Assembly (NCBI RefSeq): GCF_029582805.1
Contig: NZ_JAKKUT010000002.1
Coordinates: 186,001-250,000, forward strand
Reading direction: 5' to 3'
DNA length: 64,000 nt
From: Candidatus Synechococcus calcipolaris G9
Lineage (GTDB): Bacteria > Cyanobacteriota > Cyanobacteriia > Thermosynechococcales > Thermosynechococcaceae
Both the position numbers and the translations under genes were made by a program. Position 1 is the stretch's first letter. Every line of letters starts with the position of its first letter. Positions 36,867 through 48,859 of this stretch are shown here, piece by piece. The notes below the pieces were generated by a model that worked only from the letters and a program-made list of their open reading frames with translations, was not told the DNA's origin and did no database searches.

Positions 36867-37203
36867 GTCTCTGCCCCATGAGGACTGTTAATGCATCGGT
36901 TCATTGCAAAATTATTTGCAGACAGAAGTAGATGAGGGTTTACGAATGATCTTGTATCTCTAATGGTGAAGTTGTGCGGCGACAGACAACCCTGAACTCT
37001 AACCGATAACCTCTGGTTTGTCCGCACCAAAGCAGTATTAAGTGTCTATCGATCTTGATAGCGCGATGCTTGCTCTGCTAATCCCAACTCTAGCTGTCCG
37101 CTAGGGTTAACTCGCACAACTTCAGCTAATTCCATGTACTTCTCCAAGAAACCTATTTCTTTAGCAATAGCTTTTAGGGAGAGCCTTCTTAGAATAGCTA
37201 TAG
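36867..37203. other. Gap with inverted repeat and displaced methyltransferase tail
   Basis: No gene starts here. GTGCGG at 36974 and CCGCAC at 37021 form a small inverted repeat. On the minus strand, 37046-37203 carries the frameshifted C-terminal coding sequence of the methyltransferase described below. Confidence 0.6.
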
Positions 37204-37224
37204 TTATTGGTCTTTTTTCATCCC
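37046..37224 (-). pseudogene. Displaced C-terminal coding segment of the methyltransferase
   Basis: Read one frame over from the methyltransferase, this stretch is open for 58 codons to TAG at 37046-37048. It encodes DEKRPITIAILRRLSLKAIA, then a stretch ending GLAEQASRYQDR. Adding one base in the five-A run at 37225-37229 (plus strand) joins it to the upstream gene as SMIF-WDEKRPIT, a natural-looking end for an adenine methyltransferase of this type. This shows directly as an open frame; the original fusion is inference. Confidence 0.75.
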
Positions 37225-38589
37225 AAAAATCATAGATTCAAGAAATTCGAGGGATGGCTTGGAATTAAGAAGACTCAATATAAAATTGGCTTCATTCTCC
37301 GTGTCAAAGGACAAAAAATTAACAGTATCATCTAGCATGACTGGTTTATTATCAATGGGCTTGACAAGCCAGAAATTCAACCTCTTATAAAATCCAGATA
37401 TAGCAATCTTCCACTTCTTAAATGAATATTCTCCTACGCCAAATATAGAATAGGGAGGCTTGTCTTTGTATATCGAACTTTTTCTACGACTTAATAGAAC
37501 ATCATGTTCAAGTAGATACTGCCAAGTATTAAGTGCTTTATCTTTGATAATACTTGTATCGCTGCCTATTGTTTTTTGCGTAACTAAGACAAATTTTCGA
37601 CAGGTATTAATCCTACCATTTCCAATATCCGAACTTTTCAAAAGAGGATATAGATAATCTGTTTCAAGTGAATATTTTTGATGCATTCCATTTTGAAATA
37701 GCCCATTTTCAACTTGCTCTAGTTCCATTACTTTAGAACAATCATGTTTAATTCCAGAACGCCAAGTATATCTCATATCTTGGCCTAATAAATGCTTCCA
37801 TTTTTCGTATTTTGCTGTGTCTTTGAGGATAAAACCATCTCTTTCACCAATAAGATACAGTATCTGATCTGATATTAGGTCTTTATAAACAACGCAGTCA
37901 GAATTGGTATGAGAATTAGTAGATAAGATAAAGAAGCAAGCCTCTACTGAAGCTCCAAAGAAAGCTTTTGCATCAATTAGGTAAATGGAAGCAGAGAATC
38001 TATTACCTGATCTTTTTCTTATTTGCCTAAAGACTTTACGTGCTACTGAATACTTGCACAGGAGAGCTATAGTTCCTTCTCTTTTTGTGAGCCATTCAGC
38101 ATGTTTCAGTAGCATCCATTCTGAAATATCAAAATTACCTGAACCTGTTATAGCATCAATGCCTCGACGATTCTGAAAATTTGACTTTGAAGGCAAGTTT
38201 TTGCTGTTGAGAATGCTTAGTTCGCTGCTTGTAACCCAAGGAGGATTCCCAATGACTAAGATATAACCTGAAAAATTAGCAAGAAAGAAATCCCAATCAA
38301 TGCCGAAAAAATCTTCTGTTAGAACAGTTACATTTTCTGAATTTGGATATTTTGACAAGGTTTCTTTTGCTTTCTCAACATATTTCTCATTAATATCAAA
38401 ACCTATAATCTTAGAGCACTCAAACTCACTTAGAGATGCTCTAAGAAAAGCTCCTTTTCCACAAGTTGGCTCTATTACTAGATCGGGAGAGATGCCGTGT
38501 TTTTTTCTAAGCAGTCTAGTCGCACATTTTGCAAGTTCATTAGGTGTCTGGAAATCACCGAACTGCCATTTATCTAATGACTTCACCAT
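37204..38589 (-). CDS. Adenine-specific DNA methyltransferase (frameshifted at 3' end)
   Basis: The 461-residue frame is a gamma-class N6-adenine methyltransferase. It starts near FGDFQTPNELAKCATRLL, has the SAM-binding motif I VIEPTCGKGAFLRASL (about 37-52) and catalytic motif IV LVIGNPPWVTSSE (about 114-126). It ends abruptly, SMIFGMKKDQ, where relatives continue; the missing tail lies in another frame (37046-37224). The endonuclease gene is six bases upstream in the same operon. Base composition is AT-rich and HIP1 is absent, unlike the rest of the window, which suggests transfer. Activity after loss of about 55 residues is doubtful. Confidence 0.88.
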   Translation of the reverse strand: MVKSLDKWQFGDFQTPNELAKCATRLLRKKHGISPDLVIEPTCGKGAFLRASLSEFECSKIIGFDINEKYVEKAKETLSKYPNSENVTVLTEDFFGIDWDFFLANFSGYILVIGNPPWVTSSELSILNSKNLPSKSNFQNRRGIDAITGSGNFDISEWMLLKHAEWLTKREGTIALLCKYSVARKVFRQIRKRSGNRFSASIYLIDAKAFFGASVEACFFILSTNSHTNSDCVVYKDLISDQILYLIGERDGFILKDTAKYEKWKHLLGQDMRYTWRSGIKHDCSKVMELEQVENGLFQNGMHQKYSLETDYLYPLLKSSDIGNGRINTCRKFVLVTQKTIGSDTSIIKDKALNTWQYLLEHDVLLSRRKSSIYKDKPPYSIFGVGEYSFKKWKIAISGFYKRLNFWLVKPIDNKPVMLDDTVNFLSFDTENEANFILSLLNSKPSLEFLESMIFGMKKDQ

Positions 38590-38595
38590 TTTCGA

Positions 38596-39261
38596 TTATT
38601 GAACTCTAACTATTCCTGAAACATTACCTGCCTGTTGAATAACACGTCCGTATTGCAACCTCCACTGAAGAGCATTAGATATCGTTAGATAGCCTTGATT
38701 CGGAGGTGATTCTAGTATTCTATCAGCCAATTGGTTTGCTCCTATCTCATCAACTGGTAAGTTTCTGTCTTCCAAAAAGGCAAGGATGTCATCTTTATTC
38801 CCATCACGATTTAAAATATCTAAGATGCCTCTGGTTGTTTGAAAATCTGCTGTTCTACTCTTGTCTATAAATATAGTGTGCTGCATATCCAATCTTCCAG
38901 TTCTGTTATCAGGGTCATCGTATTTGTCGTAGACAAAAACCAGAAGATGATATCCAAGTCCAAAGACTTTTTGGGTGGCAGACTTGAAAGGGCATGAAGA
39001 TTGAGGCTGCTTTACACTAGTCACCTTTATATCAACTTCAAGATCAGGGAGATCAATACCTGAAGCTGAATTTCCGGGCTGGTAATTATAGTTTTCAGCC
39101 AAGTATGCTGTGAACTTTTGTTCAAGATAGGTTCCAACAGCCTTTCCGTCAGTTACTCCGTAAAGCTTGGGTTCATCGTATATGGACTCTATCTCAGCAA
39201 ACTGCTCTGCTTCAGCACACAGTTGTTTGATGCTTAGTGTTGGTTTCATCCTTTCTGTCAA
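38596..39261 (-). CDS. Probable type II restriction endonuclease
   Basis: The 221-residue protein is the likely nuclease partner of the methyltransferase. A PD-(D/E)XK-like core is visible: GTYLEQKFTAYLAENYNYQ (helix with glutamate), then GIDLPDLEVDIKVTSVK (about 88-104), where DxxxxxVDIK supplies the metal-binding acids and lysine, then a strand LLVFVYDKYDD. I do not recognise the recognition-site family. If the methyltransferase is inactive, an active nuclease would be lethal unless the tail is dispensable, so either the nuclease is silent or the frameshift is a read error. Confidence 0.75.
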   Translation of the reverse strand: MTERMKPTLSIKQLCAEAEQFAEIESIYDEPKLYGVTDGKAVGTYLEQKFTAYLAENYNYQPGNSASGIDLPDLEVDIKVTSVKQPQSSCPFKSATQKVFGLGYHLLVFVYDKYDDPDNRTGRLDMQHTIFIDKSRTADFQTTRGILDILNRDGNKDDILAFLEDRNLPVDEIGANQLADRILESPPNQGYLTISNALQWRLQYGRVIQQAGNVSGIVRVQ

Positions 39262-39393
39262 GCGGAGATATCATCAATAGTACATCGGCTTAGCAAAAAT
39301 AGGAGAAAGAGTGCCTTACAGAAATGACCCCCTTCAGAGAGAGTGTGCGTTGAATGTGGACACCTAACTTTGTTTCTCTGATGTTACAAACTC

Positions 39394-48123: not shown

Positions 48124-48477
48124 GTGTTACCTGCCCAGCATCGACTCCGCCATCGTCGGGACTTTGCTAGAGTCTATCAGCAGGGGACGAGTTTCCATAG
48201 TCCGTGGCTTGTCCTTTGGGTTTGCCCGCAGACGGTTGGGACAGAAACCCGCATTGGCATTGTTGTTGGCTCTAAAGTCAGTAAAAAAGCCGTCCAACGC
48301 AACCGCATTAAGCGGCAGTTGAGGGTACTGTGTCGGCAGCTTTTACCCCTTCTAGTTTCTGGCTGGGATGTGGTTCTTGTGGCCCGGGCGGCGGCCGTGG
48401 GTCAACAGAGTGGGCAATTTCTGCCAGAATTAAAGCAGTTAGTGGCTAGAGCAGGACTTTTCCATGCCAGGAATTAA
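48124..48477 (+). CDS. rnpA: Ribonuclease P protein component
   Basis: The 117-residue basic protein has the RnpA signature RNRIKRQLRVLCRQLLP (about 58-74) and the RRDFARVYQQG start of the substrate-binding groove. It joins RNase P RNA in trimming tRNA 5' ends. The start is GTG (48124). The last 14 bases overlap the next gene, so the two are translationally coupled. Confidence 0.95.
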   Translation: MLPAQHRLRHRRDFARVYQQGTSFHSPWLVLWVCPQTVGTETRIGIVVGSKVSKKAVQRNRIKRQLRVLCRQLLPLLVSGWDVVLVARAAAVGQQSGQFLPELKQLVARAGLFHARN

Positions 48478-48859
48478 AGAAGACATTTACTATGAAGGCG
48501 GGCCCCACTGGGGTGATTTAATGATTAATATTCTTTTGGGCTTTACCGTCATTTGCCTACCCCTCACCGTGGGGGCAATTGTCCGTGCCCTGTGGCTGCG
48601 GTATCGGATCACCAATCGGCGCATTACCGTCATTGGCGGTTGGATGGGCCGCGATCGCTCCGATGTGGTCTATACGGAAGTCGCCAAGGTGGTCACAGTT
48701 CCCCGAGGTTGGGGTTCCTATGGCGATATGGTTGTCACCCTCAAGGATGGTAATCGCCTAGAAATGCGTGCTGTTCCCAACTTCCGTGACATCTATGCCT
48801 TCATTGCCGAAAAGCTGACTCCCCAAGCCCAAAGCGTCAGTGGTGCTATCGGCAGTTAA
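48464..48859 (+). CDS. Bacterial PH-domain membrane protein
   Basis: The 131-residue protein has one or two N-terminal helices (about 20-42, LLGFTVICLPLTVGAIVRAL) and a bPH2-type domain (about 45-125) with YRITNRRITVIGGW. The same small gene separates rnpA and yidC in many cyanobacteria. It overlaps rnpA by 14 bases and precedes yidC by 44. Its function is unknown; its position suggests membrane-protein biogenesis. Confidence 0.82.
   Translation: MPGIKEDIYYEGGPHWGDLMINILLGFTVICLPLTVGAIVRALWLRYRITNRRITVIGGWMGRDRSDVVYTEVAKVVTVPRGWGSYGDMVVTLKDGNRLEMRAVPNFRDIYAFIAEKLTPQAQSVSGAIGS

Follow-up and report, generated by a model that had tools for sequence, protein, structure and literature searches.

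We confirm that, in the sequence as given, the DNA methyltransferase gene of a type II restriction-modification (R-M) pair of Candidatus Synechococcus calcipolaris G9 contains a one-base frameshift close to its 3′ end. Within the 64,000-nucleotide stretch analysed (the window), the main frame of this gene lies on the reverse strand at 37204-38589 (frame 0, 461 codons) and encodes an M.TaqI-like N6-adenine DNA methyltransferase. In profile searches the product matches the PADLOC family MTase_II (PDLC03310) with an E-value of 1.2e-154 and scores above the cut-off of PF02384. It contains the SAM-binding motif and the NPPW motif (here GNPPW); the conserved C-terminus, with its KRPIT, is found in the other frame.

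The 461-codon frame ends with ESMIFGMKKDQ and a stop, GMKKDQ being a tail foreign to the family. Just upstream of this tail, the coding strand holds a run of five T (37225-37229, five A on the forward strand). From 37225 a second frame reads W-DEKRPITIAILRRLSLKAIAKEIGFLEKYMELAEVVRVNPSGQLELGLAEQASRYQDR-stop, with its last base at 37046: the W codon occupies 37225-37223, and the 58 codons that follow it, with their TAG, occupy 37046-37222 on the same strand. The sequence-only reading had described a methyltransferase frame that stops at 37204 with an odd tail, and our coordinates, frame and GMKKDQ ending agree with it. The other frame that it saw open for 58 codons down to 37046 is likewise present, and constitutes the C-terminus of the family, as judged from homologue alignment, dN/dS and conserved columns.

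A scan of GTDB species genomes gave 80 homologous loci, and at 79 of them the equivalent of MIF-WDEKRPIT is read through in one frame. The nearest relatives, L002 and L003 (92% and 91% identical), both have six T at the junction, in line with the earlier proposal that one extra base in the 37225-37229 run rejoins SMIF-WDEKRPIT. Compared with its nearest relative, the window frame has 461 residues instead of 514 and stops 53 residues short. The only exception at the junction is L004, which has seven T there and another indel around codon 15; this copy comes from a metagenome-assembled genome (MAG) of 2.25x coverage and, given its extra frameshift, is unreliable as evidence that the run varies in length. 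At another locus, L025, the junction is open, but a stop interrupts the gene at another place and it lacks a nuclease partner. The T run itself is not kept in many other homologues. An exact 20-mer with five T was met in a viral contig, where it belongs to an unrelated protein and was set aside; none of the plasmid records covers the R-M operon closely.

In most homologues the 58-codon tail aligns to the methyltransferase C-terminus, directly after residue 455 and with identity of up to 90%. In an alignment of 40 full-length homologues, the positions F455, K459, R460 and L467 never vary, and D457, P461, I462 and T463 hardly do. The sequence-only reading had named two findings that would count against it, namely homologues ending at residue 461 and a 37046-37224 translation without family similarity; no reliable homologue among the 80 loci stops there, and the similarity of the translation is clear.

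The shifted tail evolves much as the body of the gene does. Against L002 and L003, respectively, tail dS is 0.30 and 0.26 and tail dN is 0.046 in both comparisons, with body dS of 0.26 and 0.27 and body dN of 0.038 and 0.041. The resulting dN/dS is 0.15 and 0.18 for the tail against 0.14 and 0.15 for the body, and the tail keeps all nine of nine conserved columns. As constraint on the tail is unrelaxed, the break is either very recent or not real; with only 58 codons, the dN/dS comparison rules out an old break and nothing more. Apart from this one base the methyltransferase gene is well preserved, and the loss is therefore a sequencing slip or a very recent event.

What a truncation would remove was assessed by modelling the intact homologue L003 with AlphaFold2 (mean pLDDT 85, pTM 0.81). 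Residues 456-491, 36 in all, are modelled with high confidence as three helices, and only residues 493-514 fall below a pLDDT of 50. The best fold match of the model is M.TaqI, a gamma-class N6-adenine methyltransferase (E-value 1.5e-10); the likeness is one of fold, at 15% identity and a TM-score of 0.48-0.60, and the enzyme of the window family is longer. A search of solved structures by sequence returned only distant methyltransferases. According to the model, a real truncation would take away ordered, conserved structure and would probably inactivate the enzyme, since the lost end includes the invariant K459 and R460 along with the 36 confidently modelled residues.

The partner nuclease, a type II restriction endonuclease, is intact (38596-39261, reverse strand). 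It matches NCBIfam NF052465 over its full length (positions 1-209 of 209, E-value 2.2e-108) as well as PADLOC PDLC03454 (REase_II), and has the conserved residue at each column shared by 90% or more of 53 homologues. It is listed with a TTG start, although an ATG four codons further in is likelier. A sequence search of solved structures gave no match for it. The genes are the same as in the PADLOC pair of PDLC03310 and PDLC03454 (NF052465), with full-length similarity and the nuclease first, directly followed by the methyltransferase. Seen as a system, the window thus has a full-length endonuclease of the family, and lacks a full-length methyltransferase that would read in one frame through its conserved C-terminus.

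Such a combination is rare. The 80 loci include 54 with both genes intact, 18 with the nuclease absent or damaged and the methyltransferase intact, 6 cut off by contig ends and 1 with both lost; the classes were assigned automatically, and assembly errors may also account for some of the damaged genes. The window and L004 are the only two cases of an intact nuclease next to a broken methyltransferase. The nuclease tends to be the first to decay, as in L023, L027, L048, L053 and L063, where it is apparently frameshifted and the methyltransferase is open. An active nuclease without its methyltransferase is harmful to the cell. We found nothing directly relevant in the literature on truncated methyltransferases alongside an active nuclease. 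We also looked for the recognition site through palindrome avoidance: a number of palindromes occur sparsely in this genome, but the same holds for most of them in the relative G009, which lacks this methyltransferase, and none could be attributed to the R-M system.

Judged from its edges, the R-M pair was gained as an integron-type cassette. Its left edge is a GTTAGGT (39362-39368, reverse strand), a GTTRRRY shared with L002: identity to L002 starts at GTTAGGTGTCC (39368), and the DNA upstream is unrelated. After the methyltransferase lies a degenerate attC-like site (36958-37046, reverse strand, R′ = ATTAGAG), recognized by alignment with L002, L003, L004, L010 and L012. The L002 copy folds strongly (z -3.6); the decayed window copy has a z of -0.4. 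The pair, at 36958-39368, is bounded like an integron cassette. An attC-like site also follows the methyltransferase in L002, L003 and L004, one of the same kind lies upstream in L010 and L012, and three further copies of the repeat occur in this genome.

No functional integron integrase was found in this genome; the only piece to stand out in the profile search is a relic (L152:8234-8674, reverse strand) whose match spans profile positions 1-64 of 315 and whose open reading frame looks internally deleted. It lies about 5.5 kb from the attC-like copy at C2:1922159. A functional integrase is needed for a cassette to move, not for it to be a cassette. Because the attC of the window has decayed and the integrase is only a relic, the cassette has probably lost its mobility.

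Of the three readings offered from the sequence alone, read error and recent inactivation both stand, and phase variation is not supported. We lean slightly to error over real mutation, and put a mistake in sequencing, assembly or consensus calling, with a complete methyltransferase in the living cell, at about an even chance. On this reading, a former integron cassette carries an ordinary type II R-M pair whose sequence as given is short of one base in the T run, and the cell would make the full enzyme of about 514 residues; we infer that the missing base is present in the organism. We lean to error because the tail is constrained, the nuclease is intact at its conserved positions, the broken-methyltransferase pattern is rare, and no second copy of the methyltransferase was found in this genome, where the only match is the gene itself.

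The assembly gives no sign of being generally error-prone, which favours a true mutation. Its completeness is 99.97%, and the longer homopolymers of the methyltransferase gene (A7, T6, A6) are all in frame. Proteins of family relatives, compared with 461 kb of the genome (stretches and window), covered about 136 kb and revealed no other frameshift; zero events set a 95% upper bound of about one per 45 kb. This keeps a real recent mutation a live reading. A systematic homopolymer fault is unlikely, and an isolated single error is possible. A candidate second frameshift at 48460 was dismissed: rnpA and a PH-like gene (48124-48859, forward strand) are separate genes there, with a 14-base overlap, and in relatives the two form a single uninterrupted reading stretch from stop to stop.

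A genuine deletion of one base in the very recent past, which would cut the methyltransferase off at residue 461 and leave it with little or no activity, is accordingly a serious contender, if short of an even chance. R-M pairs related to this one decay often across the 80 loci, and the system is dispensable, since its attC has decayed and the methyltransferase is missing from all 22 family relatives searched. The cell could survive with a silent or weak nuclease, with residual activity of the truncated enzyme, or with an intact gene on other chromosome copies, cyanobacteria being often polyploid. Yet the loss of the modelled C-terminal helices should abolish protection, the nuclease shows no departure at conserved positions, and its survival beside a broken methyltransferase is nearly unseen elsewhere.

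Nothing points to a special mechanism behind the break, and the finding is an ordinary one. That slippage genuinely takes place at the T run, with recoding or mixed chromosome copies keeping protection, frameshifting setting the methyltransferase dose and the nuclease staying on, is very improbable. Unlikely, too, is phase variation, by which slippage in the run would toggle the methyltransferase. Phase-variable methyltransferases with simple repeats are known from Helicobacter, Neisseria and Moraxella, and share with this gene a frameshift in a homopolymer; the same place does have five T in the window, six in L002 and L003 and seven in L004. However, the window run is far shorter than theirs, five to seven T being less than slippage tracts usually have, the gene has longer runs that are unaffected, and the reliable copies are invariant except for the window. 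Moreover, the seven-T copy is the doubtful one, many homologues do not keep the run, and switching the methyltransferase off beside an intact nuclease would be harmful. Equally unlikely is ribosomal or transcriptional slippage yielding some full-length enzyme at the T5 or at an A6 just downstream (37213-37218): both lie within the two-frame overlap, where a -1 shift joins body and tail and would account for the conserved tail and nuclease, but neither has the ideal slippery phase, and the A6 is ordinary coding in relatives with an unshifted frame and therefore not a selected signal.

If the base is truly missing, this strain has an apparently intact nuclease with an incomplete protecting enzyme, and how it survives would be worth a look. 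Otherwise, readers of the record should take the R-M system to be intact. In both cases the R-M family is already well characterized, and genes of this type often show breaks of a single base.
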